A stretch of DNA of 64,000 nt, from assembly GCF_006861775.1 (NCBI RefSeq), contig NZ_VDGG01000014.1, positions 84,639 to 148,638 of the forward strand, given 5' to 3'. Below are positions 3,714 to 56,927 of this stretch, piece by piece (position 1 is the first letter of the stretch; every line of letters starts with the position of its first letter). A model generated the notes under the pieces. It saw only the letters and a program-made list of their open reading frames with translations, did no database searches and was not told the DNA's origin. The position numbers were made by a program, and so were the translations under genes. This DNA comes from Psychrobacillus soli (GTDB taxonomy: Bacteria; Bacillota; Bacilli; Bacillales_A; Planococcaceae).

Positions 3714-4448
3714 ATGAAAAAGGTTGCAATGTTTTTCCTATGTCTTCTTATATTAATTCTTCCATCACAAGTTTTTGCGCAACGTAAAGTACCTATTTTA
3801 ATATATCATTCGATAGACGAATTTGAAGAGCATGGTTCTAAGGAGTTATATGTAACACCGAAGAATTTCGAGAAACAAATGATTTATCTAAGAGACCATG
3901 GCTACACATTATTAACTTTTGATCGATGGCAAGACATTTATAAAGTAAACAAACCCATTTTCATTACCTTTGATGATGGGTACAAAAACAATCTGAATGC
4001 ATTTGATATCTTTCAAAAACTGAAAAACGACCGTTTTAAACCTACTGGTACTATTTTTGTTATTTCTGACTTTATCGGTCGCTCCAACCGATTATCGGAA
4101 TCGGATTTAAAAATGATGGTTGAGTCGGGGATCATCTCAATTCAGTCTCATACTGCTACACATCCTGATTTGACGAAAATAAATAATTTTGAATATGAAC
4201 TGAAAGGGTCTAAAGATAAAATTCAAAAAATAACGGGCAAACCAGTTAATGCTCTTGCGTATCCATACGGAAATTTTAGTAACAAGGTCGTTGCAGAAAC
4301 GAAGAAATACTATTTGTTTGGACTTACGACAACTCCTGAACTATTTTCTGAGAAGGGAATAAAAGATGAATTCTATCTTTTACCACGGATCTATATCAAG
4401 TATTCAACTACTCTTGATGACTTTGCAAAGATTGTTGACGGAGAATGA
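3714..4448 (+). CDS. Secreted polysaccharide deacetylase (NodB-type)
   Basis: A carbohydrate esterase family 4 protein. I chose the ATG at 3714, four bases after GAGGAG, because it gives a clean signal peptide (MKKVAMFFLCLLILILPS, then VFAQ); an upstream in-frame start would bury it. The mature enzyme has the NodB motifs TFDDGY (metal and catalytic Asp), SHTATHP (two metal His) and AYPYGNF. The family removes acetyl groups from peptidoglycan or N-acetylglucosamine polymers outside the membrane. It stands alone between repeat-rich spacers. The exact substrate cannot be read from the sequence. Confidence 0.88.
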   Translation: MKKVAMFFLCLLILILPSQVFAQRKVPILIYHSIDEFEEHGSKELYVTPKNFEKQMIYLRDHGYTLLTFDRWQDIYKVNKPIFITFDDGYKNNLNAFDIFQKLKNDRFKPTGTIFVISDFIGRSNRLSESDLKMMVESGIISIQSHTATHPDLTKINNFEYELKGSKDKIQKITGKPVNALAYPYGNFSNKVVAETKKYYLFGLTTTPELFSEKGIKDEFYLLPRIYIKYSTTLDDFAKIVDGE

Positions 4449-4514
4449 AGGCGATTACTATACCAGTTAATTGTTTTTTTCTTTTGGAGCCAAGGGAAAT
4501 TGGTTATTAGTGTT

Positions 4515-4583
4515 TGTAAGAACATGGGGTTGCCATAGGTAACTCTTTTTCTTATTGAACTAACGCAGCAAAGTTTTTGAAGG
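4515..4583 (+). repeat. Dispersed intergenic repeat, type C (left end missing)
   Basis: GGGGTTGCCATAGGTAACTC forms the type-C hairpin, followed by TTTTTCTTATTGAACTAACG and the right end CAGCAAAGTTTTTGAAGG. It abuts the 3' end of the permease remnant, which may have been truncated there. Confidence 0.7.
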
Positions 4584-4597
4584 ATAGGAAACAATTG

Positions 4598-4903
4598 TTA
4601 AAAATGGTACTCTCTTGCTAGGAATAATGAGATAAGGTCGTAATTGTTTAAAAATTTGATAGTGACTTTTAGTTTTAGTAGCATCCTTGTGTATATCGCT
4701 ACCAACAAAATACCTGATGTACAGGCAATAAGAATCAAATGTAGAAAACTGCTGTTGCCCATAGAAGGCAACAGTTCCAAGCGATAAGAAAAGATATTGA
4801 TGAGAATGAGACCAAACCAAAATGTTGGGAAAGAAGTACCAACAAACTCCAAAAATCGGCTCGAATGATCCGGAATCCGATTGCAGAAAAAAGCGGCAAG
4901 CAT
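4598..4903 (-). pseudogene. Remnant of an oligopeptide/nickel-type ABC permease
   Basis: About 100 codons resemble the middle of DppB/NikB-type permeases: a GTSFPTFWFGLILI segment, the PSMGNSS loop, and an HLILIACTSGILLVAIYTRM transmembrane stretch. Both the N-terminal part and the C-terminal EAA loop are absent, and no partner genes (second permease, ATPases, binding protein) are nearby. The 3' side runs into a dispersed repeat. I infer a decayed gene and expect no function. Confidence 0.7.
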
Positions 4904-5134
4904 CCAATCTACGATACGCTTCTCATCTTATTCAAGGGTCGTATGTACTGACAAAGTAGCTGAATTTTTCATATTTCTAACAATTAGCGATATTTCAGCT
5001 AATTGATTGATATCTCCGTAATAGCATACGATTCAATCGTAGAGGTAAAATCAGTCATATATCTACCTTTCATAAGTTCTGAAATAATTCTGCGAAGCTA
5101 TAAAATAATATTAAGAATATTCGTAAAATTTGTA

Positions 5135-5163
5135 TTGACATGTAATAACCTCGTAATTATAAT
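5135..5163 (+). promoter_or_regulatory. Consensus sigma-A promoter upstream of the carnitine locus
   Basis: A perfect TTGACA and a perfect TATAAT are separated by exactly 17 bases. The first gene starts 334 bases downstream, leaving an unusually long leader. Confidence 0.75.
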
Positions 5164-5171
5164 TACATTAA

Positions 5172-5185
5172 ATAAAGCGTTTACA
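5172..5185 (+). promoter_or_regulatory. Candidate CcpA (cre) site
   Basis: ATAAAGCGTTTACA matches the right half and core of the cre consensus, with mismatches at the first two positions. It lies just after the -10 box, where CcpA binding represses catabolic operons. It is a prediction from sequence only. Confidence 0.4.
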
Positions 5186-5496
5186 TTTTAAAAATTGAAT
5201 ATAACAAATAGAGGTGCGTTAAAAGGGTAGTCCGTGAGGATGAAGGTTTTTATCGCCGATAGTTGGATTCCAACTAGGTGGATGTGAGTAGAGTTACATT
5301 CACTGTCATATTTTATATATGGAGAGCTATTTATTTCATTTAGGTTTTGCCTAGATTTGAAATATAGCCTCCTTTTTTGTTCTTGGGAGTTGTTAGAACC
5401 TTTAACAACATTTGCTGTATTTAATCTATGCAAAGTCTTTTTGGCGCGCAATGGAGTTTGCATAGAATAGATAAAATTAGGTTCAGGGGGTAATTT
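5186..5496 (+). other. Long untranslated leader of the carnitine operon
   Basis: About 310 bases lie between the candidate cre site and the first start codon. A small inverted repeat (AGTTGG, three-base loop, CCAACT) is visible near 5258-5272. I see no known riboswitch consensus and no terminator with a T-run. A second weaker promoter nearer the gene cannot be excluded. Confidence 0.35.
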
Positions 5497-6831
5497 ATGT
5501 TAACTGCAGTAGATCTCTCAAGAAAGCGTAAGTTTTTAATTCTCATCATCTTAATGATGGCAGGAGCATCAATCTATTCATTACCTTATTTTAGATTTTC
5601 TTATTACACACCATTGCAAGAGGCATTGGGATTAGTAGGAAATAATCTTGCTTATGGAAATCTAGCATCTGTTTACGGGATTGTAAATTTAATTTGTTAT
5701 TTACCAGGTGGATGGATTGCTGATAAGTTTTCTACCAGAAAATTATTGACCTTCTCCATGGTATCTACTGGTATATTGGGACTTATTTTTGCAACCTTTC
5801 CGCCATATCCTGTCACTTTAGCAATACATGCTTTATGGGGGCTCACAACCGTTTTAACTTTCTGGTCGGTTTATATTAAAGCGGTCAACGTAATGAGTAC
5901 TTCAGAAGAACAAGGGGAAATGTTTGGTTGGTTAGAAGGTGGTAGAGGGGTTATAGGAATCATCTTTACTATTGGTGGTTTGTGGTTGTATCAATTATTA
6001 GGTGCTGCATCAAGTGATTTAGCACTTGTTATACAAATTATTAGTGCTTTTTGTATTTTGACTGGTGTATTAATGTTCTTTATGTTACCAGATATAGCTT
6101 CCGAAGATAATGATGTCGGAAAAGTTACAGCGATGCAAATTATTACCGTATTAAAAGTACCAACAACATGGATATTGGCTGGTATCATCTTCACAACTTA
6201 TATTTTCGCAGCAGGTACAAGTTATCTAACTCCATATCTAGAGTTTGCATTTGGTCTTACCGCTGCAATGGCTGGAACTGTTTCCGCGATTCGAGGGGAG
6301 GCTGCGAAAATCATATCAGGCCCTCTTTTTGGGAGTATTTCCAAAAAACAAGGAAAATCGACTGGAATTATGAAAGTTGCTTTTGTTTCTTTAGTGCTAC
6401 TTTCCATTCTCTTAATGATCATTCCTAGTAATCCAACTTTCTTATTCTTAATGATTTTTATCGTTATAGCATTAGGATTCTTTGCTTTCGGATTACGAGG
6501 TGTGTACTGGGCAGTAGTAGACGAACTGGAGACACCAAAATATATGGTCGGTACAGTTGTGGGAGTGGCTTCTATTATTGGTTTCATACCAGATGCATTT
6601 ATCTATACGTTGTTTGGAGGAATTATGGATGCAAACCCGGGATTACCAGGTTTTCGAATGATATTTATAATTTTCATAGGCGTTGCTGTCGCTGGAGCAA
6701 TAATAGCCTTTATTGCGGATAGAATGATTGTGAAAATTCAAAAGAAAGATAAAACAGAAACCAATAATGTGGCATCTATGGATGTTACTAATATCCAAAA
6801 CCAAATAGTAGGAGGTCAAATTAATGAATAA
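5497..6831 (+). CDS. MFS transporter of the carnitine locus
   Basis: A 444-residue major facilitator with twelve hydrophobic segments, the loop 2-3 motif GGWIADKFSTRK near residue 72 and a short hydrophilic tail. AGGGGG precedes the ATG. It is the first gene of the operon and its end overlaps the next gene by eight bases. The substrate is unknown. Since glycine betaine and acetoacetate are the expected products of carnitine breakdown, export or exchange of one of them is a reasonable guess from context only; uptake of a related quaternary amine or hydroxy acid is the alternative. Confidence 0.85.
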   Translation: MLTAVDLSRKRKFLILIILMMAGASIYSLPYFRFSYYTPLQEALGLVGNNLAYGNLASVYGIVNLICYLPGGWIADKFSTRKLLTFSMVSTGILGLIFATFPPYPVTLAIHALWGLTTVLTFWSVYIKAVNVMSTSEEQGEMFGWLEGGRGVIGIIFTIGGLWLYQLLGAASSDLALVIQIISAFCILTGVLMFFMLPDIASEDNDVGKVTAMQIITVLKVPTTWILAGIIFTTYIFAAGTSYLTPYLEFAFGLTAAMAGTVSAIRGEAAKIISGPLFGSISKKQGKSTGIMKVAFVSLVLLSILLMIIPSNPTFLFLMIFIVIALGFFAFGLRGVYWAVVDELETPKYMVGTVVGVASIIGFIPDAFIYTLFGGIMDANPGLPGFRMIFIIFIGVAVAGAIIAFIADRMIVKIQKKDKTETNNVASMDVTNIQNQIVGGQINE

Positions 6832-7711
6832 TGATGTTATTATCACATGCGCTTTAACAGGATCAGGTGATTCTGCTCATAAGAGTGAATTCGTACCTGT
6901 TACACCACAGCAAATTGCTGATTCTGCTGTGAAGGCGGCAAAAGCAGGAGCTGCAATAGTTCATGTTCACGTAAGAGATCCAAAAACCAAGAACTATAGT
7001 AAAGAATTAAGTTTATATGAAGAAACAGCAAGATTAATTCGTGATAGTGGTGTAGATATGATTCTTAACATCACTGCAGGTATGGGAGCTGACTTTGTAC
7101 CAGACCCAGAGAACCCATCTGTAGGTGGACCTGGTACCGATATGATTACGCCAGCAGAAAGAATTGCACATATTGTAAAAATAAAACCTGAAATTACAAC
7201 ATTAGATTGTGGGTCAATGAACTACGCTACAACATCGTATATTGCGACGATGGATATGTTACGTGAAACTGCTAGAGGGTTATTAGAAGCACAGGTGAAA
7301 CCAGAAATTGAAGTATTTGAGTTAGGACATATTTGGCAAGCAAAACAACTTATGAAAGAAGGTCTTATTGAGGATTACCCTACCTTCCAATTATGCATGG
7401 GCGTGCCATATGGTGCAGAAGCGACACAACAAAATATGATTGCTATGTTACATGCATTACCACCAAACGTAAATTGGAGTTCCTTTTCAATAGGACGTAA
7501 TCAAATGCCTTGGGTGGCCCAATCTGTACTAATGGGTGGGAATGTTCGTGTGGGCTTAGAAGATAATATTTATCTAGGAAAAGGCCATCTTGCTACAAAT
7601 GAGGAACTTGTAGAAAATGCGAAAGAAATCGTTGAACGTATGGGTGCACGTATCCTTTCACCGAAAGAAGCAAGAGAAAAATTAAAAATACAAGCTAAAC
7701 AATATATTTGA
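6824..7711 (+). CDS. Beta-keto acid cleavage enzyme (DUF849), probable dehydrocarnitine cleavage
   Basis: A 295-residue BKACE-family protein. Members transfer a C2 unit: 3-ketoacid plus acetyl-CoA gives acetoacetate plus a CoA ester. It shows the N-terminal IITCALTGSGD, the zinc-binding AIVHVHVRDPKT near residue 45, TAGMGADF, the GPGTDMITP loop and GGNVRVGLEDN near the C-terminus. It resembles the dehydrocarnitine enzyme of pseudomonad carnitine clusters. Lying directly upstream of L-carnitine dehydrogenase, it should turn 3-dehydrocarnitine and acetyl-CoA into betainyl-CoA and acetoacetate. A strong AGGAGGT site precedes the start, inside the end of the MFS gene. Confidence 0.9.
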   Translation: MNNDVIITCALTGSGDSAHKSEFVPVTPQQIADSAVKAAKAGAAIVHVHVRDPKTKNYSKELSLYEETARLIRDSGVDMILNITAGMGADFVPDPENPSVGGPGTDMITPAERIAHIVKIKPEITTLDCGSMNYATTSYIATMDMLRETARGLLEAQVKPEIEVFELGHIWQAKQLMKEGLIEDYPTFQLCMGVPYGAEATQQNMIAMLHALPPNVNWSSFSIGRNQMPWVAQSVLMGGNVRVGLEDNIYLGKGHLATNEELVENAKEIVERMGARILSPKEAREKLKIQAKQYI

Positions 7712-7729
7712 TAAAGGAGATAATACGTC

Positions 7730-8734
7730 ATGAAAGCTGAAGAAATCAAAAATGTCGCAATTATTGGTGCAGGAGTAATTGGTGCAGGTTGGGCCGCAAG
7801 ATGCTTACATCGAGGATTTAATGTTTATGTTTCAGATCCAGCACCGAATGCGAAAGAAGTTTTAGATGAAGTAATTACAAATGCTGAATCTGCCCTACAA
7901 AAAATTATTTCTGTCCCTGAACATAAAAAAGGGAAACTATATTTCATGAATAGTATTAAAGAAGCAGTTGAAAATGCGGATTATATACAAGAAAGTGCAC
8001 CTGAAGTTGAAAAAATTAAAATTAGTATTTTAAATGAAATTGATAAATATAGTAAGCCAGATGCAATTATTGGAACAAGTACTTCTGGTCTATTACCAAC
8101 CCGTTTACAATCAGAAATGATGTATCCAGAACGTTTAGTAGTAGCTCATCCATTTAATCCTGTGTATATTTTGCCGTTAGTTGAAATTTGTGGTGGTGAA
8201 AAAACAGCAGAAGAAACTAAAGAAGAAGCTGAAAAATTCTATCGCTTAATTGGAATGCATCCTTTACTTGTTCGTAAAGAAATAGATGGCTTTATTGCGG
8301 ATAGATTATTGGAAGCACTTTGGCGTGAAATTCTTCATCTTATCAATGATGGAATCGCAACTACGGGTGAAATTGACGATGCTATTTCCTACGGAGCTGG
8401 GTTGCGTTGGGCAATAATGGGGACAAACATGACATATTATTTAGCCGGCGGTAAACGAGGTATGAGACACTTTATGGAGCAATTCGGACCAACATTAAAA
8501 CTACCATGGGCTCATATTGAAGCTCCTGAATTAACCAATAAATTAATCGACGAAATGGTGGAAGGAACAGCTGAACAAGCAGAAGGAAAAGATTTACGTG
8601 AATGGGAAGCTTTACGAGATAACTGCTTAGTCGACATCATGGAAGCGTTAGCCAAAAATGATCATGGTGCCGGTAAAGTCTTAAAAGAAGACCGTGAGAC
8701 TCAAGCAGAAAGATTAACTTTAGAATATAAATAA
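7730..8734 (+). CDS. lcdH: L-carnitine dehydrogenase
   Basis: A 334-residue 3-hydroxyacyl-CoA dehydrogenase-fold enzyme that oxidises L-carnitine to 3-dehydrocarnitine with NAD+. The Rossmann motif GAGVIGAGWAAR is at residues 14-25. The block STSGLLPTRLQSEMMYPER followed by AHPFNPVY is diagnostic of L-carnitine dehydrogenases rather than of fatty-acid FadB-type enzymes, as are EALWREILHLI and GMRHFMEQFGP further on. It follows the BKACE gene by 18 bases with AAAGGAG as ribosome site. It is the best identified gene of the locus and defines the pathway. Confidence 0.92.
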   Translation: MKAEEIKNVAIIGAGVIGAGWAARCLHRGFNVYVSDPAPNAKEVLDEVITNAESALQKIISVPEHKKGKLYFMNSIKEAVENADYIQESAPEVEKIKISILNEIDKYSKPDAIIGTSTSGLLPTRLQSEMMYPERLVVAHPFNPVYILPLVEICGGEKTAEETKEEAEKFYRLIGMHPLLVRKEIDGFIADRLLEALWREILHLINDGIATTGEIDDAISYGAGLRWAIMGTNMTYYLAGGKRGMRHFMEQFGPTLKLPWAHIEAPELTNKLIDEMVEGTAEQAEGKDLREWEALRDNCLVDIMEALAKNDHGAGKVLKEDRETQAERLTLEYK

Positions 8735-8751
8735 GATAGTTGGAGGTTACT

Positions 8752-10797
8752 ATGGACCTACAGTCGTTACTAAATCCGCAAAGTGTTGCGTTGATTGGTG
8801 CTTCAAATAAGCCTGGATCTTTAGGTTTTGAAATGATGGAAATGATAGCGGAAGGTACTTTTACTGGTAAAGTATATCCTATAAATCCTAAATATGATGA
8901 AATATTAGGGATGAAATGCTTTCCAGATTTAGAATCAATTGGCCACCAAGTTGATTTGGTTGTACTAAGTGTTGCAGCCAAGCGAGTCTTAGCTCAAGTG
9001 GAAAATATCATTGAAAATAAAGCAAAATCAATAGTTATCTTCGCGAACTGTGTATTAGAAGAAGATTTAGAATTAGAAGAGAAAGTTGTCAAAAAATGTA
9101 GGGAAGCAAATATACCTGTAATGGGTCATAATGCGATGGGTTTTTATAATAATGACATTGGTTTACGGATTTGTGGTTTTAGAGCACCTGACGCGAACAT
9201 TAAAGGAAATATTGCTTTGATTTCACAATCCGGATCTGTGTTCAGTACAATCGGTCATAATGAACCACAGTTAAAGTTCAATCTGCAAGTTGCAACCGGG
9301 ACTGGTCATATTACGAGCTTAGAAGATTATATGAAGTATGCATTAGAACAATCTTCTACAAAAGTAATAGCAGTCTATATGGAATCTGTTAGAAAACCGG
9401 AAGAGTTTATCGAAGCATTAATAATGTCGGTAACTAAAAAAATTCCCGTTGTAATAATGAAAGTTGGAAAATCAGAATTAGGAGCAGAATTTGCTAAATC
9501 CCATACTGGTGGATTAGCTGGTAATGATGATGTCTTTCAAGCAGTTTTTGATCACTATGGCGTCATTCGTGTAGATAGTTTACAAGAATTTGCGAATACA
9601 TTAAGTCTCTTTAGCTATTTTCCTGAAATTCCAGCTGGGGGGCTGGTAGCCGTTGTGGATTCGGGTGGGGAACGAAACTTATTAGCCGATGATGCAGAAT
9701 ACGCTGAATTAGACTTTGCCACGTTATCTGATAACACTATGTCAGAATTGTCTCAAATTCAAGAATATGGACAACTTGCTGCAAACCCATTAGATCCTTG
9801 GGGAACGGGTATCGATTTCGAGCGTATTTTTACTGACTCATTAACGATTATGTTAATGGATGATAATGCAGCAATTGGTATTATTTCACAAGATTTGCGT
9901 GATGGTTATTATCTTTCGAATGGTTGTATAGATGCTCTTCGTAAAAGTCATGAAAACACCAAAAAACCTGTAGCCTTTTTAACAAATTTCAGTGGAACAA
10001 GAAGAGGTGAAGCGACTAAGCTAGTCAATAATATTCCTGCGCCGCTTTTAGTAGGAACGAAAGAAGGATTGTTAGCAATCAAACATTATCTTTATTATCG
10101 TGATTTCACCTTCTCTGAAGGAAATATTCAAGAGATGGATGACAAGTCAAATGAGATAATTGTAAAAGGAACATTAAGTGAAATCGATTCACTTTTTCTT
10201 CTGGAAAAATTCGGATTAGTTATTAATAAACCATACGCAGTAGAAAGCCTAGCAGACATTGAGGTAATACAACATGAGTTAGATTATCCAGTTGTATTAA
10301 AGACAGCCGAAGATGGAATATTGCACAAGTCAAATGTAGGGGGAGTTGTGCTAAATTTACAAAATAATGAGGAATTAAAAGATGCTTATGAAAAACTGTC
10401 AAATAAATTAGGTTGTAGAGCTATTATTGCACCTATGGTTACTTTTGAGTCTGAATTCATATTAGGAATGAAACAAGATGCGAACTTTGGACCAATGGTT
10501 GTTGTCGGGGCAGGAGGTATATTAACTGAACTAATTAATGATAAATTCGTTATTCTACCAAATGCGAGTAGGACAGAGATTGAAAGAAATATTAAAGCTT
10601 TAAAAAGTTATCCACTCCTTACCGGTTTTAGAGGTAAAGAACTTGTTCCAATCGATACTTTTATCGATACTATCCAAAAATTTTGCCACATGGTTGAAAC
10701 ACTTTCAGCACAATTAGGTGAAGTGGATATTAATCCTGTTGGAGTAAAAGGTGATAAGATTATAGCTTTAGATGCACTAATTATCGGCAATGAGTAA
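8752..10797 (+). CDS. ADP-forming acyl-CoA synthetase (acetate-CoA ligase family)
   Basis: A 681-residue single-chain NDP-forming acyl-CoA synthetase: an N-terminal CoA-binding domain (SVALIGASNKPGSLG), succinyl-CoA-ligase-like domains (ISQSGSVFS, then KSHTGGLAG with the likely phospho-His), and a C-terminal ATP-grasp domain (YPVVLKTAEDGILHKS, VVGAGGILTEL). I prefer the ATG at 8752 after GGAGG to a TTG twelve bases earlier. Family enzymes interconvert acyl-CoA, ADP and phosphate with acid, CoA and ATP. In known aerobic carnitine pathways a thioesterase releases betaine from betainyl-CoA. Here this enzyme occupies that slot, so an ATP-conserving step is inferred. Confidence 0.9.
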   Translation: MDLQSLLNPQSVALIGASNKPGSLGFEMMEMIAEGTFTGKVYPINPKYDEILGMKCFPDLESIGHQVDLVVLSVAAKRVLAQVENIIENKAKSIVIFANCVLEEDLELEEKVVKKCREANIPVMGHNAMGFYNNDIGLRICGFRAPDANIKGNIALISQSGSVFSTIGHNEPQLKFNLQVATGTGHITSLEDYMKYALEQSSTKVIAVYMESVRKPEEFIEALIMSVTKKIPVVIMKVGKSELGAEFAKSHTGGLAGNDDVFQAVFDHYGVIRVDSLQEFANTLSLFSYFPEIPAGGLVAVVDSGGERNLLADDAEYAELDFATLSDNTMSELSQIQEYGQLAANPLDPWGTGIDFERIFTDSLTIMLMDDNAAIGIISQDLRDGYYLSNGCIDALRKSHENTKKPVAFLTNFSGTRRGEATKLVNNIPAPLLVGTKEGLLAIKHYLYYRDFTFSEGNIQEMDDKSNEIIVKGTLSEIDSLFLLEKFGLVINKPYAVESLADIEVIQHELDYPVVLKTAEDGILHKSNVGGVVLNLQNNEELKDAYEKLSNKLGCRAIIAPMVTFESEFILGMKQDANFGPMVVVGAGGILTELINDKFVILPNASRTEIERNIKALKSYPLLTGFRGKELVPIDTFIDTIQKFCHMVETLSAQLGEVDINPVGVKGDKIIALDALIIGNE

Positions 10798-10805
10798 TAT
10801 ATGAG

Positions 10806-10846
10806 AGTTAAAAGGTTAATCGTTTCCTTCGATCAACCTTTTAACT
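10806..10846. terminator. Large inverted repeat between the enzyme genes and the BCCT gene
   Basis: Arms AGTTAAAAGGTT and AACCTTTTAACT are perfectly complementary around a 17-base centre. There is no T-run on the plus strand, so it may be a weak terminator, an RNA processing site or an operator that lowers expression of the downstream transporter genes. Confidence 0.5.
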
Positions 10847-10911
10847 AATAACTATTATTCTTTCAAAATACTTTATTTCTGAACATATAGATATTTAATT
10901 AGGAGATGATA

Positions 10912-12462
10912 ATGATGGACAGCAAGAGTAGCGTTAAAAAACAGAAGATTTTCACTCCTATTTTTCTTCTTTCCGCTTTAATTACAGGTGTCTTTTCTGT
11001 TTTTTCATTAATTAGCCCCGATACATTGTCCAATAATATGACTTTTATTCAGTCACTTTTTGCAACGCAGTATGGATGGGTAGCCATGATAATTCCAGTA
11101 TTTTGTATGATGCTATTAGTTGTTTTAGGTATATCTAGATATGGGAATATCGTCATTGGCGGTGAAAATGCAAAGGCTGAATATAGCATATTTTCATGGA
11201 TATCTATGTTATTTACAGCTTCAATTGGAATTGGAATCATCTATTTTGGTGTAAATGAACCTATCTATGCGTATATTTTATCACCTGCTAGTACACAAGC
11301 TCCGAGTGTTATGGAAGCTGCCAGAGAAGCAATGGGAACAGCGCTTTATCATTGGGGGGTATCTGTGTGGGCTATTTTTAGTGTTGCGGGTTTAGTAATG
11401 GCCTATTTTGTTTCGAAACATAAAATTCGCTATTTACCAGGGGATGTAATTGAAAAAAGTTTTGGTAAAAGAAAATGGGTACCTATTACGAAGAGTTTCA
11501 TGAATATTCTAGCCGTTGTATGTTCAGCTATGACAATTGCAGCTACACTTGGTTTAGGTAGTGTACAAATAACAACTGGAATGAATCAAGTGATTAATAT
11601 TGATAATTCTTATAGCACAATTCTTCCGTATCTTGTACTAATCCTCTTACTTATTGTATGTTTATTTGCTTCAACAACAAAGACAGTGGGAAAGGGGATG
11701 GATATAATTGGAAGGTGGAACGTTTATCTTGCAATATTTATGTTAGCCTTTGCAATGTTCTTTGGACCTACACGTTATATCCTGAACCAAGTTGTACAAT
11801 TACTAGGAACATTTATAGATCAATTGATTCCTAGAAATTTTGATATGTTTTTATTTAGTTTAGATCCTACTTATTCAACAACATGGGATGTCGCTAATAA
11901 CATGTGGTGGATTTCTTGGACACCTTTTATGGGTGTATTCATTGCATCTATTTCAAAAGGAAGAACTATCCGTCAATTTGCTTTCACGACTATGACAATA
12001 CCAGTCATATTTATGCTGTTATGGCATGCAGCATTTGGAGGAGTAGCACTTTTGGATAAAGTTTTGGGAACTGGAAAAATTGCTCAATTCGCTTTAGAAA
12101 ATCCAGATATGACCTTCTTTGCTATTTTACAGACAATGCCCTGGCCTAAGTTAACTGCCATTGCAACGATTATATTGTTAATTATGTTTATTTCAACTAC
12201 AGTGACAAGTGCAGCTTTATCTTTAGCGAGAATGACAGATATAGAAGGAAAAGAAGCAGCTCCTGTTAGAAGTGCAGTGTGGGTTATACTCATGACCGTT
12301 ATCGCTTTAACTGGTATTTTTGCTACTACATTAGGTGGTAATGAAGCGTTAAATTCGATAAAATCTTTAGCTACGACGCTATCATATCCGTATCTATTTT
12401 TCTTCATATTAATGATAACCGGATTTATTAAACAATTAATGAAAGATAAACCACCAGTGTAA
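10912..12462 (+). CDS. BCCT-family carnitine/betaine transporter
   Basis: A betaine/carnitine/choline transporter of about 516 residues with twelve membrane segments. AGGAG six bases upstream favours the ATG at 10912. The glycine stretch of TM3 reads TASIGIGIIYFG (Ser where BetP has the first Gly of GMGIG), and the Trp-rich TM8 region reads MWWISWTPFMGVF with ISKGRTIRQF after it. The family uses Na+ or exchange to move trimethylammonium compounds. The neighbours predict carnitine or short-chain acylcarnitine as substrate. The C-terminal tail is short, without the long osmosensory extension of BetP-type carriers, which fits a nutritional role. Confidence 0.9.
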   Translation: MMDSKSSVKKQKIFTPIFLLSALITGVFSVFSLISPDTLSNNMTFIQSLFATQYGWVAMIIPVFCMMLLVVLGISRYGNIVIGGENAKAEYSIFSWISMLFTASIGIGIIYFGVNEPIYAYILSPASTQAPSVMEAAREAMGTALYHWGVSVWAIFSVAGLVMAYFVSKHKIRYLPGDVIEKSFGKRKWVPITKSFMNILAVVCSAMTIAATLGLGSVQITTGMNQVINIDNSYSTILPYLVLILLLIVCLFASTTKTVGKGMDIIGRWNVYLAIFMLAFAMFFGPTRYILNQVVQLLGTFIDQLIPRNFDMFLFSLDPTYSTTWDVANNMWWISWTPFMGVFIASISKGRTIRQFAFTTMTIPVIFMLLWHAAFGGVALLDKVLGTGKIAQFALENPDMTFFAILQTMPWPKLTAIATIILLIMFISTTVTSAALSLARMTDIEGKEAAPVRSAVWVILMTVIALTGIFATTLGGNEALNSIKSLATTLSYPYLFFFILMITGFIKQLMKDKPPV

Positions 12463-12500
12463 TTGTCACGGTGTTCACCGTAAGGAAGGAATGATAATAG

Positions 12501-12656
12501 ATGGATATGTATTATTTGACTGGTTGGGAACTTATTACTGAAAAAGTCCTTCAAATTGGAATGTTAGTATTTCTTATCTGGAACGTAAAGTTACTTTTTT
12601 TAGAAAAAAAAGATTATGTAGATGGAGATGATGACCATGGAAATGAACAAATTTGA
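12501..12656 (+). CDS. Small single-span membrane protein beside the BCCT gene
   Basis: A 51-codon frame with a good ribosome site (AAGGAAGG) starts 38 bases after the transporter stop. The peptide has an N-terminal amphipathic part, one hydrophobic helix (QIGMLVFLIWNVKLLF, residues 18-33) and an acidic tail (DGDDDHGNE). It overlaps the start of the esterase gene by 20 bases in another frame. Position and topology suggest an accessory subunit of the BCCT carrier or a coupling peptide for the next gene. I do not recognise a family. Confidence 0.55.
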   Translation: MDMYYLTGWELITEKVLQIGMLVFLIWNVKLLFLEKKDYVDGDDDHGNEQI

Positions 12657-13614
12657 TGCTTTAAAAATGATGACTCCTGAAATGATTGCAACTTTAAAAA
12701 AGCAAAATGAACTTGTCGAAGACGCATTTTCAACAAATGTAACCTATGAAAAAATGCGTGAAAACTATAATAATGAAAGAAAATTTTGGAATGAAGGTGG
12801 TCCAGAACCTAAAAAAAGCGTTGATTTAGAGTTAGAAGGACCTTATGGAACTATTGGTATTCGTATACATTATCCACAAAAAAGAACCGGAAAAGGTTCA
12901 ATTGTATATATACATGGTGGAGGGTTTGTAGTAGGAAATCTTGATACCCATAGTAGGATTATGCGCATCTTAATGGAAGAAACAGAGTCGGTTGTAATTG
13001 GAATTGACTATCATTTAGCACCCGAATATAAATACCCTACACAAGTAGAAGAATGTGCCTTTTTAGTTGAATGGTTACGGAGTAATGCGGAAGAATATGA
13101 TCTTGATAAGAATGATATTTCTCTTGCAGGTGATTCAGGTGGAGCCAATTTATCTTTAGCAACTGCTTTGTATTTAAGGGATAAAAAAGATGATGTTACG
13201 TATTTACGTAGTTTACTTCTATATTATGGAGCTTTTGGATTAACTGATTCAAGATCAAGGCGCATATTTGGTGGTGATTATGATGGATTGGGTCGTGAAG
13301 ATTTAAAGGCCTATTCAAAAATGTATATAGAAGATGATAATGTAGATTTACGTTATTTTGATTGCTTTTCAAATGATTTAACTAAAGGGGTACCTCCTTG
13401 CTATATTGCTTATGGAGATTTAGATCCACTTCAAGATGATAGTATATTATTATATGACATATTGACATATAATAATGGAAAAGCAGAATTAGAAGAATTT
13501 AAAGGTGTTATTCATGCTTTCTTACATCATTCTCGTATTCTTCCTGAAGCAAAAGAGGCAATTAAAAATGGTGCAAATTTCTACAAGTCATTAATACATG
13601 TAGGGAAATTTTAG
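12637..13614 (+). CDS. HSL-type alpha/beta hydrolase (possible acylcarnitine esterase)
   Basis: A 325-residue carboxylesterase of the hormone-sensitive-lipase family. It has the oxyanion motif HGGGF, the nucleophile elbow GDSGGAN, a catalytic Asp in GDLDPLQDD and a catalytic His in GVIHAFLHH. Several in-frame ATGs exist; I chose 12637, nine bases after GGAG. It follows the BCCT transporter and small membrane peptide and ends the locus before a strong terminator. By context it may split imported short-chain acylcarnitines into carnitine and a fatty acid. This is inference; the family is broad. Confidence 0.85.
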   Translation: MEMNKFDALKMMTPEMIATLKKQNELVEDAFSTNVTYEKMRENYNNERKFWNEGGPEPKKSVDLELEGPYGTIGIRIHYPQKRTGKGSIVYIHGGGFVVGNLDTHSRIMRILMEETESVVIGIDYHLAPEYKYPTQVEECAFLVEWLRSNAEEYDLDKNDISLAGDSGGANLSLATALYLRDKKDDVTYLRSLLLYYGAFGLTDSRSRRIFGGDYDGLGREDLKAYSKMYIEDDNVDLRYFDCFSNDLTKGVPPCYIAYGDLDPLQDDSILLYDILTYNNGKAELEEFKGVIHAFLHHSRILPEAKEAIKNGANFYKSLIHVGKF

Positions 13615-13750
13615 AATCAAGTCTTCTTCTAGACTTTTCTTTCTAATACCGGTATAGAGGCATTTCTATGATATATTGAAAAGGTTTTTCATTAGTGGAT
13701 AGGTCTCAACATTAGTTGATTAATTTTTGCTAACTACTTTGATTAATAAT

Positions 13751-13784
13751 GGTGGTAAGGGTTTATACCTTATCACCGTTTTTA
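13751..13784 (+). terminator. Terminator of the carnitine locus
   Basis: GGTGGTAAGG and CCTTATCACC pair around a seven-base loop and are followed by GTTTTT. It closes the transporter-esterase transcript. Confidence 0.75.
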
Positions 13785-13919
13785 TGTTAATTTTTGTATA
13801 TTTTACATTGTAGGGAAGCTGCATAATATTAGTAAATCAAGAGGGCTGATGCCTAAAGCGCAGCAGAAAGCTCCAATTTTATCCATCGTTAAAGGCAAGA
13901 AGGATAAAACCTATCTGGA

Positions 13920-14160
13920 GTCAGAGACCTTGGCACGTCACACATGGATATGATACGGCAACTCGGGAGACTCTACCGGTCTTTTCTTATAGAATAGCAT
14001 GGTGTACAAATGATAATAAGCAAGGAAACCAAATGCCGTTGTGGGTAGTCGGATAGCAGAATGAGCGAAATCTGATCGAAAGAGATTAGCTATATTTTGT
14101 TAATGATAACTAGGAGGAGCCGTATACGTGAATAGCGTAAGCCCGGTTCTGCGTTGAAAA
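13920..14160 (+). mobile_element. Group II intron remnant without reverse transcriptase
   Basis: At 14117-14151 the sequence has the look of intron domain V: GAGCCG at the 5' side, CGGTTC at the 3' side and a GTGAATAGC tip. Upstream, phrases such as CTCGGGAGACTCTACCGGTC and ACCAAATGCCGTTGTGGGTA resemble the region that follows the reverse-transcriptase frame in bacterial group II introns. No reverse-transcriptase frame remains. The domain V stem carries mismatches, so splicing is unlikely. Confidence 0.6.
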
Positions 14161-14332
14161 AATGACGTTGAAACTTACGGGAATTGGTATTTTTAAAACG
14201 ATTACTTCCAAGTTTTAGTTAGATTAAAGTATAGACTCGGGACATATCAGAGTGATAACCTCATTTTGATGCGTTAAGATGAACTGTATGATAAATAATT
14301 GTCAAGGCTATTTTGTACCAAGGTTTATAATT

Positions 14333-14378
14333 CGTTCTTCAGTAAACGGGTGCTTTACCTCAAGAAGGCTAAAGTAAC
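14333..14378 (+). repeat. Dispersed intergenic repeat, type B left half
   Basis: TTCAGTAAACGGGTGCTTTA followed by CCTCAAGAAGGCTAAAGTA matches the type-B left end and hairpin. The right end is not recognisable; the GNAT remnant follows. Confidence 0.55.
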
Positions 14379-14439
14379 TTAATCAAACTGGTTTAAATCA
14401 GTAAATTAAGTATGATAAAGCGCGCTTTATTAGGGCTTT

Positions 14440-14565
14440 GATCATTTAAGACAAGATGGATACTCTGAAGATCGTCTTAGTGCGTATACTGGGAATCACG
14501 TTATTAAAATTTACGAAAAGATGGGCTTTAACATAAGAACAGTTTCTATGAGCTTGCAATTATAA
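14440..14565 (+). pseudogene. C-terminal remnant of a GNAT acetyltransferase
   Basis: A 41-codon stretch reads as the end of a GNAT enzyme: DHLRQDGYSEDRLSAYTGN, then HVIKIYEKMGFNIRTVSM, the usual strand-helix-strand with the N/YEKMGF motif. A TAG stop lies nine bases upstream in frame and there is no start codon, so only the tail of the gene has survived. Confidence 0.65.
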
Positions 14566-14769
14566 GCTTGGTTTTTTTCACGAATGATTTGTTGGCCCAA
14601 GAAGGATTGATGCTCTTTTTGTTGAAGTTATTGTACTAAAGGTAAAAGTGTCATACTTCAAAGGATATTGGAATAATACATTACTAGAATACATTATAAA
14701 AACAGGAAGAAAAGAGGTGATAGTACGTTAGAAAAACTTAGAAAAATTACTTTAAAAACTGCTGTCTAT

Positions 14770-15150
14770 ATGGGGATTATTTTTTACTCTTTGACTATCT
14801 TAATCCATCTTCTTATTATTATCGAAATTATTCCATTCACATGGGTTAATGGTGGACGGTCTGAATCCTTCGCTATTCAGTTACCAATATCTATTATCAA
14901 TACTGTTATTTCTATTATTGGAGGAGTTTTTACGCTGTTTGTCAGCAAAAATATACTAAATAAATACCAAAGAGGAATAACCAGAATATGTTGGTTTTTT
15001 GTTATACTTTGGTCAGTTGGGTTTATACAACAATTGCTTGGCACACCTTTTGAAAAAATGGTTTGTTCGTTTATATTGTTCCTTGGAGTCATCTCGAACT
15101 TACGTATGGCCATTGAAAAAAAACGAGTAACGATTAAATTAACAAGTTAG
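14770..15150 (+). CDS. Small four-span membrane protein
   Basis: A 126-residue hydrophobic protein with about four membrane helices and a basic tail; no family recognised. The first ATG (14770) lacks a ribosome site and begins inside the first helix. A good site (AAGAGGTG) lies at 14711-14718, followed in the same frame by ACG (14725) and TTAGAAAAACTTAG, which would add a 15-residue polar N-terminus. The original start may therefore have been an ATG mutated to ACG, leaving the gene poorly translated. A type-A repeat follows the stop. Confidence 0.55.
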   Translation: MGIIFYSLTILIHLLIIIEIIPFTWVNGGRSESFAIQLPISIINTVISIIGGVFTLFVSKNILNKYQRGITRICWFFVILWSVGFIQQLLGTPFEKMVCSFILFLGVISNLRMAIEKKRVTIKLTS

Positions 15151-22800: not shown

Positions 22801-22804
22801 AACC

Positions 22805-22950
22805 TCCCTCTCTCTTAACGCTTACGGGGTTAGCTGTCGGATTCGGGCTAAAAGAGTAGCCCTACCTACAATATAGGATTCACCCCTTGTGATTTTAACA
22901 ACCACGGATAATGGTTTCCCCACTCCAAAAGGATTCAGCGATTTTCGAAA
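22805..22950 (-). promoter_or_regulatory. c-di-AMP (ydaO/yuaA-type) riboswitch
   Basis: The minus strand carries the hallmark blocks in order: TCGCTGAATCC, GGGGTGAATCC, GGTAGGGCTAC, GCCCGAATCCGACAGCTAAC and CCCGTAAGCGTTAAGAGAG. It lies directly upstream of ktrA. The class turns off potassium uptake when c-di-AMP is high. Confidence 0.92.
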
Positions 22951-38289: not shown

Positions 38290-38745
38290 ATGAAGAAAAA
38301 AATAGATGAATTACACATTCATGAAACACATTACGAGGCAATTTTACAACAAGTAAAAAATGATCCTTATGCTCTTTCTTTAGGTATTCAGTTGACCTAA
38401 TTCAAAGCTGGTTTTGCGGAGGCAAAATTAGAAGTACAAAATCATATGGTCAATGCATATGGCACGGTGCACGGTGCCGTTATTTATGCTTTAGCAGATT
38501 TTGCTTTTTCGGTAGCCTGTAATGCATATGGAAAGACCTCTTTAGCGGTAAATACAACTATACAATTTATGGAATCAGCTAAACCTGGGGACAAGTTATT
38601 AGCCCATGCAACAGAGGTTAAACGTAATTATCGTACAGGATTCTATCGTATTGAGGTTTATCATGAAGAAAATTTGATTGCAACTATGGAAGCTATGTCT
38701 TACCGTAAGGACCATTATTTCATTGAACTTGCTGAAATAAATTAA
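38290..38745 (+). pseudogene. PaaI-family hotdog thioesterase with a nonsense codon
   Basis: The frame starting at ATG 38290 (AAAGGGGA upstream) reads KIDELHIHETHYEAILQQVK, then LGIQLT, then TAA at 38398, and continues as a normal PaaI-type thioesterase: MVNAYGTVHGAVIYALADFA (catalytic loop), VNTTIQFMESAKPGDKLLA and HATEVKRNYRTGFYRIEVYH. A single change from GAA to TAA would explain it (family usage has E-F there). The remaining ORF starting within the catalytic loop is unlikely to fold alone. Confidence 0.8.
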
Positions 38746-56674: not shown

Positions 56675-56905
56675 ATAAAAAAGCGCTCCCGTCCCTATAA
56701 ATAAGGACGAAAACGCTTGTCTCCGCGGTACCACCTAAATTTGCCGAAAAATCGGCACAACTTACTCCTCCTTATCGCGGGAGGCACGACTATGTTTACA
56801 TAGTAGCTCCGAAGTAGGTTCGACATATGAGCGGGAGGTGAAACTTGCAGCGGGTCATTTCACTCTCTAGTACTCCATCATATATGTACTATTCTTCATC
56901 TTGGC
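56675..56905 (-). promoter_or_regulatory. Proline T-box leader of proI
   Basis: On the minus strand, Stem I carries AGTA and GAA-CCT-A in the specifier loop, so the specifier is CCT (Pro), matching the gene. The T-box AGGTGGTACCGCGG follows, then the terminator AAGCGTTTTCGTCC/GGGACGGGAGCGCTT with six T. Confidence 0.93.
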
Positions 56906-56927
56906 TTTTATTTTCTGAATTAAAGAA

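Follow-up and report, generated by a model that had tools for sequence, protein, structure and literature searches.

An operon-like carnitine gene run in Psychrobacillus soli with a predicted ATP-forming synthetase in the place of a thioesterase

Gene run and identities

The window studied here is a 64,000-nucleotide stretch of the Psychrobacillus soli genome (C8:84639-148638; the source genome comprises 4.23 Mb in 101 contigs). At 5497-13614 on its forward strand lies a run of six genes that we read as a predicted operon for L-carnitine breakdown, in which an ADP-forming acyl-CoA synthetase (ACD) would take the place of a thioesterase. The order is MFS transporter, beta-keto acid cleavage enzyme (BKACE), L-carnitine dehydrogenase (LCDH), ACD, BCCT carrier and esterase. 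All six genes are complete and tightly packed, with intergenic gaps of -8, 18, 17, 108 and 159 bp from 5′ to 3′. The first-pass annotation of this DNA had named adjacent LCDH and BKACE genes followed by a single-chain ACD, a BCCT carrier and an esterase, and profile matches agree with it on every one of them. The present analysis adds the MFS gene, the relationship to clostridial genes and to DddX, the betaine reductase link and the lysine-class riboswitch at 5201-5337.

5135-5163, forward strand: sigma-70-type promoter-like site TTGACA-17-TATAAT, 12/12 matches, the sole perfect one in 4400-14900 (the scan overall was no richer than shuffles, 47 sites against 45.5)
5201-5337, forward strand: lysine riboswitch aptamer match, RF00168, 58.8 bits (gathering score 30, E 8e-13)
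5321-5378, forward strand: intrinsic terminator, its 5′ arm including the 3′ strand of P1 (5327-5332), then U6
5497-6831, forward strand: MFS transporter, PF07690, 79.4 bits, overlapping the BKACE gene by 8 bp
6824-7711, forward strand: BKACE, PF05853, 310.7 bits (cut-off 24.8)
7730-8734, forward strand: LCDH with no fused thioesterase, NF005471, 418.2 bits (cut-off 414)
8752-10797, forward strand: single-chain ACD with CoA_binding_2, Succ_CoA_lig and ATP-grasp_5 matches
10906-12462, forward strand: BCCT carrier, PF02028, 367.7 bits
12622-13614, forward strand: HSL-type esterase, NF007547, 395.5 bits (cut-off 389)
13748-13780, forward strand: terminator-like hairpin 3′ of the run, 13 pairs, then a T-rich tail

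The LCDH passes its model narrowly; the copy in the clostridial locus L169 scores 434.4 bits. It is 66–75% identical to clostridial copies and is predicted to carry out the NAD-dependent oxidation of L-carnitine. The BKACE, 68–76% identical to clostridial copies adjoining LCDH, is predicted to convert 3-dehydrocarnitine and acetyl-CoA to betainyl-CoA and acetoacetate. Assignment to Kce of lysine fermentation was tried and rejected, as both the window protein (235.8 bits) and the copy in L018 (240.9) miss the NF052387 cut-off of 382.

For the ACD gene, the most likely start is ATG 8752, behind GGAGG and 17 bp past LCDH, which we prefer over TTG 8740. The BCCT carrier reaches the cut-off of no NCBIfam substrate model; its substrate is probably carnitine or betaine. 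The esterase is possibly an acylcarnitine esterase, and a gene 42% identical to it stands between the SSS symporter and ACD genes of L169. The clostridial loci gave no match to the MFS gene and carry an SSS symporter in its place.

Thioesterase and synthetase beside two types of LCDH

Carnitine catabolism by LCDH, BKACE and a thioesterase is known from Pseudomonas and Sinorhizobium (in part from PMC12482172). In the window's family, an LCDH search over 261 genomes returned 27 matches at E <= 1e-60. Setting aside the window genome and a distant match of 42% identity (G137, L150) leaves 25 relatives, each 49–53% identical. All 25 read BKACE, LCDH, thioesterase, the last starting 5–87 bp past the LCDH match. 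Their flanks, within regions of 17 kb (7.6 kb in one case), gave no match to the ACD. An ACD of at least 50% identity occurs in a single one of the 261 genomes, the window's own, all other matches being at most 34% identical; the sample of the order consists of the same 261 genomes. The distant locus L150, from the window's genus, holds a pair of LCDH-like (41–42%) and BKACE-like (32%) genes at 7748-9725 with no thioesterase or ACD match, and this pair likely has a different substrate.

The nearest LCDHs elsewhere are clostridial and come from Marinisporobacter (L018), Proteocatella sphenisci (L019), a Clostridia metagenome-assembled genome (MAG; L020) and an Oscillospiraceae MAG (L021). In these four loci BKACE precedes LCDH and ACD follows it, with an SSS symporter between LCDH and ACD in three. 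A search of Proteocatella's order (297 genomes) gave 11 with an LCDH match at E <= 1e-50. Six of them carry an LCDH 67–75% identical to the window's, and the same six are the genomes with a window-type ACD; the remaining five have LCDHs of 50–51% (four loci, L249-L252) or 38% identity (one). In a 391-genome sample of the class, the ACD was found in Proteocatella only.

In L249-L252 the thioesterase comes next after LCDH in 4/4, and no ACD was found in their flanks. Where LCDH is at least 66% identical (window, L018-L021, L169, L170 and G325, the last represented by L248/L171), an ACD is present in all eight loci, and no thioesterase was found in their flanks, which for the clostridia were the only regions searched for it. 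In the window and L021 no gene lies between LCDH and ACD, and in the others a transporter does (in L169 an esterase as well); in G325 the ACD gene is split over two contigs and cut by their ends. Since the order BKACE, LCDH, ACD recurs in seven clostridial genomes, the ACD by LCDH is not a chance neighbour. Beside either type of LCDH, thioesterase and ACD are mutually exclusive, and this holds in two separate samples.

Eight places in the window genome match PF03061, two of them also PF13279. One of the eight lies inside the window, a 4HBT-domain open reading frame (ORF) at 38458-38673 (57.6 bits) outside the betainyl-CoA thioesterase clade. A thioesterase profile, started from three thioesterases of family relatives and refined by iteration over the LCDH loci, scored 188–213 bits in the 25 family relatives, which are its training set, and 164–182 bits in L249-L252, which it had not seen in training. 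Its best score in the window genome was 21.2 bits, and a direct search there with one LCDH-linked thioesterase reached at best 15.8 bits (E 0.028). The window genome assembly lacks the usual betainyl-CoA thioesterase; the first-pass remark that no thioesterase is present thus holds across the genome for the LCDH-linked clade.

Trees join the window copies with six clostridial rows at SH-aLRT 99 for LCDH (55 rows), 99 for BKACE (52 rows) and 100 for ACD (41 rows), and place the thioesterase-type copies of the window's own family elsewhere. Because the trees unite all three window proteins with clostridial ones, the simplest reading is that the carnitine module was probably transferred from anaerobic Clostridia into the window genome.

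The predicted ATP-forming step and its rivals

The ACD contains the CoA-binding, Succ_CoA_lig and ATP-grasp_5 domains of its superfamily and keeps both catalytic histidines, in the swinging-loop motif SHTGGLAG and the ATP-grasp motif LHKSNVGG. It is 55–63% identical to the ACDs of clostridial carnitine loci. Its nearest solved relative, by sequence as well as by Foldseek (TM 0.85/0.83), is DddX (7cm9), in which W391 is described as a cation-pi Trp (PMC8163506). The matching Trp is kept in the motif NPLDPWG of the window ACD. A DddX-type Trp is found in 7/7 members of the window clade, 3/3 DddX-like rows and 2/2 plasmid relatives, with Thr in 26/26 other family ACDs aligned.

The plasmid relatives carry NPLDAWG and are 37% (L161 7974-10088, Paracoccaceae strain La 6) and 32% (L162 7992-10025, Ruegeria pomeroyi DSS-3 megaplasmid) identical to the window ACD. 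Their neighbourhoods include choline dehydrogenase and ABC transporter genes, and they are possibly another onium-acid CoA ligase. We also considered whether the window ACD is itself a DddX, a dimethylsulfoniopropionate (DMSP) lyase. His292 and Trp391 are kept, and the elimination base Glu432 is absent, so that no elimination is expected and the protein is not a DddX.

A DddX-like gene (1221.6 bits to 7cm9) does occur on the same contig of the window genome (G000), at C8:68022-80379 (L001, L015, L016), a region whose end lies some 4 kb short of the window start. With it are BCCT, acrylyl-CoA reductase family, Fe-alcohol dehydrogenase, MMSDH and enoyl-CoA hydratase-type genes. Judging by its genes, the region is likely a DMSP catabolic cluster; about 23 kb separate its DddX from the carnitine ACD downstream. 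Between this cluster and the window, on the reverse strand (L016 11987-13195), two ORFs resemble by eye a broken-up IS110-type transposase.

We consider it probable that the operon breaks down carnitine with an ATP-forming ACD step, betainyl-CoA + ADP + Pi giving betaine + CoA + ATP. The operon would import L-carnitine and cut it to glycine betaine and acetoacetate: LCDH would oxidise carnitine to 3-dehydrocarnitine with NAD+, and BKACE with acetyl-CoA would turn this into betainyl-CoA and acetoacetate. The ACD, a predicted betainyl-CoA synthetase working towards ATP, would then transfer the energy of betainyl-CoA to ATP via phosphohistidine, replacing the thioesterase hydrolysis of other pathway versions. 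This proposal builds on profile-based gene identities, gene order, co-occurrence, trees and conserved catalytic residues, from which we infer the substrate and direction of the ACD, the ATP yield and the use of betaine in clostridia. The idea of an ACD in the thioesterase slot making ATP had been put forward in the first-pass annotation; the exclusion pattern (25/25 and 4/4 against 8/8) and the betaine reductase context described next argue for it, with the direction still a prediction. The possible ATP benefit named there, "saving one ATP" per carnitine, is better put as gaining one.

In 4/7 clostridial loci (L170, L248, L019, L020) the betaine reductase gene grdH lies directly upstream of BKACE. 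The order in L170 and L248 is grdI-like, grdH, BKACE, LCDH, SSS, ACD. In L019, grdH is truncated by the contig start and ends 36 bp before BKACE; in L020 its last 42 residues, 88% identical to those of L019, open the contig ahead of BKACE. With TGA read as selenocysteine, GrdH of L170 scores 824.6 on the betaine model NF040795 (cut-off 775). The sarcosine and glycine types were tried and failed, at 585.5 of 800 and 522.4 of 602. GrdH of L248 is identified by its 64% match only, and SECIS_4 elements lie 3′ of the TGA in L019, L170 and L248. For the grdI-like subunit the best model is sarcosine GrdG, far under its cut-off (355.2 and 333.4 of 780). PF07355 was matched in 4/4 clostridial genomes tested and 0/14 control genomes, and no match was found in the window genome. 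The presence of grdH in the run at these four loci points to free betaine as the product.

In several clostridial species, the betaine reductase encoded along with the carnitine genes would convert this betaine by reduction into trimethylamine and acetyl phosphate. By our hand calculation, carnitine (C7H15NO3) and water would then yield trimethylamine (C3H9N) and two acetic acid (C2H4O2) in a redox-neutral sum, the one NADH from LCDH matching the two electrons used by betaine reductase. The acetyl-CoA spent by BKACE and CoA-transferase would be regenerated by thiolase. One ATP via the ACD and one via acetyl phosphate would make two, against only one in a thioesterase version. In the window host, where no betaine reductase was seen, the route would end at betaine, acetoacetate and one ATP.

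Several points weigh against an ATP-forming betainyl-CoA synthetase. The Trp criterion derives from docking and mutants in DddX, without a bound structure, and no assayed enzyme of the window ACD clade was found in the literature. ACDs are reversible, so the reaction direction rests on context. An unrelated thioesterase could act on betainyl-CoA. No grdH match was found in the flanks of 3/7 clostridial loci (L018, L021, L169). In a wider set of 80 LCDH loci, 19 have both a thioesterase and an ACD match (17 long, 25–29% identical to the DddX query over most of their length, and two partial ones of 75 and 132 aa), so an ACD near LCDH alone is not proof of replacement. Another 12 have neither gene in the flank, so loci with no thioesterase close by are not unusual; some of these flanks are short. 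The rest of the set comprises 40 loci with a thioesterase only and nine with an ACD and no thioesterase downstream (four clostridial; L022, L038 and L063 with one upstream; L057 and L061 with none found). Neither gene alone is diagnostic, and the case rests on the clade pattern together with the betaine-reductase operons.

It seems unlikely that the ACD spends ATP on joining CoA to a different trimethylammonium acid, be it gamma-butyrobetaine, crotonobetaine or carnitine. BcoAB of S. meliloti, a gamma-butyrobetaine:CoA ligase, receives a mention in PMC8364193. A separate ACD clade near LCDH, mostly from Alphaproteobacteria and also from Actinomycetota, lies beside ORFs that by eye resemble acyl-CoA dehydrogenase and enoyl-CoA hydratase (L022, L038, L043, L044, L047, L050, L057, L061, L063, L071, L074, L075, L079-L082, L084-L087, L090, L092), and is a candidate gamma-butyrobetaine CoA ligase. 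In the tree, however, this clade stands apart from the window clade, and a thioesterase adjoins or is fused to LCDH in 17/22 of its loci with a long match; by eye, no acyl-CoA dehydrogenase or hydratase was seen in the window operon or the clostridial runs read. The reverse pathway, an ATP-driven synthesis of carnitine from betaine and acetoacetate, is very unlikely: the steps are reversible in principle and an ATP-dependent ligase could drive synthesis where a thioesterase could not, but grdH upstream in four of the clostridial loci would use up betaine, and the thioesterase versions of the same gene order can run catabolically only.

The two remaining explanations would both leave betainyl-CoA without a known exit. 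Acetoacetate released by BKACE needs activation for use, and ACDs act on small acids, which speaks for its activation by the ACD, an alternative raised in the first-pass annotation. It is weakened by L169, which carries a 3-oxoacid CoA-transferase (subunits A and B, a family-level match) right after its ACD that could take care of acetoacetate; two CoA-transferase pairs also occur elsewhere in the window genome, and the conserved Trp suits a cation. We regard this alternative as highly improbable. Handling of an acid freed from acylcarnitines by the esterase would fit the esterase genes of the window operon and L169, yet no esterase match was found in the flanks of 6/7 clostridial loci with a window-type ACD, and we give this explanation hardly any weight.

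Leader RNA and neighbouring features

The aptamer match sits 37 bp behind the promoter-like site and 159 bp ahead of the MFS gene; E. coli lysC, as a control, scores 99.5 bits. Its P2 loop is GUGA, P3 is short, and the P2/P3 loops look shortened. Lysine is a candidate ligand. A second aptamer, in L018 (6349-6535, 75.7 bits), lies upstream of BKACE with no ORF of at least 90 aa between and with a P1-competing terminator region to 6560. Fold energies of the terminators are -21.6 kcal/mol (window 5319-5390) and -19.3 kcal/mol (L018), with z about -6.5 and -6.4, respectively, against single-base shuffles. No RF00168 match at the gathering score was found in L019, L021, L169, L170, L248 or L172; the contigs of L019 and L172 (L172 being that of L020) stop short of the operon start.

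Because the 3′ strand of P1 lies in the 5′ arm of the terminator in both RNAs, aptamer folding should block termination, and the switch is predicted to be of the ON type. ON logic is also reported (PMC5584792) for the lysine riboswitch ahead of the kal/kce lysine-fermentation genes. As L018 has no adjoining MFS gene, the riboswitch appears tied to the carnitine genes rather than to the transporter.

Other features of the window lie on the reverse strand. ORFs at 4560-4907, adjoining the upstream edge of the operon, resemble by eye what is left of an ABC oligopeptide permease. A c-di-AMP riboswitch (22803-22950) stands upstream of genes resembling Trk/Ktr potassium transport by eye, and a T-box leader (56700-56911) upstream of a gene resembling proC by eye.

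Taken together, these observations allow a broader but tentative proposal, which we hold at somewhat below even chances. The clostridial ACD would be the first of two ATP-forming steps in an undescribed redox-neutral fermentation of L-carnitine to trimethylamine and two acetate, with 2 ATP and a yield doubled over the thioesterase version. The module would have moved to a host without betaine reductase, and in two distant hosts an ON-type lysine-class riboswitch would sense lysine or a lysine-derived signal (trimethyllysine) as a cue for carnitine-rich animal matter.

Significance and comparison with known systems

The LCDH/BKACE pathway is known; the predicted ADP-forming exit step and the riboswitch are what is new. 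In the literature searched, which mostly did not extend to subscription papers, we found neither an ADP-forming enzyme for betainyl-CoA nor a lysine riboswitch on a carnitine operon. If the proposal is true, this is an energy-conserving form of carnitine breakdown, betainyl-CoA is a new substrate for ADP-forming synthetases, and some anaerobes are genetically equipped to ferment carnitine via betaine to trimethylamine. According to PMC8437865, the carnitine–betaine–trimethylamine route is a review proposal that was unseen in one human-gut fermentation model, so concrete operons and a cultured species would be of use. The lysine-class riboswitch is a directly testable regulatory puzzle.

Archaeal ADP-forming synthetases are reversible, and some make ATP from thioesters. 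The archaeal acetyl-CoA and 4-hydroxybutyryl-CoA enzymes share fold and catalytic histidines with the window ACD, whereas the latter has Trp at a position taken by Thr, Ile or Val in the solved enzymes, and its predicted substrate is betainyl-CoA. DddX, an ATP-dependent DMSP lyase (PMC8163506), resembles the window ACD in handling an onium carboxylate as a CoA thioester, in phosphohistidine, in the cation-pi Trp and in a nearby BCCT gene. In contrast to DddX, with which it is about 25–30% identical, the window ACD belongs to a separate clade, is without the Glu432 base and is predicted to work towards ATP.

With the kal/kce lysine riboswitch the window leader has in common the lysine aptamer, positive control (here predicted) and a BKACE/Kce-family gene downstream, while here the Kce model is not reached and the downstream genes would serve carnitine. 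Betaine reductase (GrdHI) is known from amino-acid-fermenting clostridia, and its grdH gene adjoins the carnitine genes in the four clostridial loci named above, in contrast to the window genome. Finally, the pathway of Pseudomonas and Sinorhizobium and that of the window share adjacent LCDH and BKACE genes and the products glycine betaine and acetoacetate. The thioesterase of the former, either separate or fused to LCDH as in NF005716, would be replaced in the latter by an ADP-forming synthetase, next to an LCDH and a BKACE of the clostridial clade.

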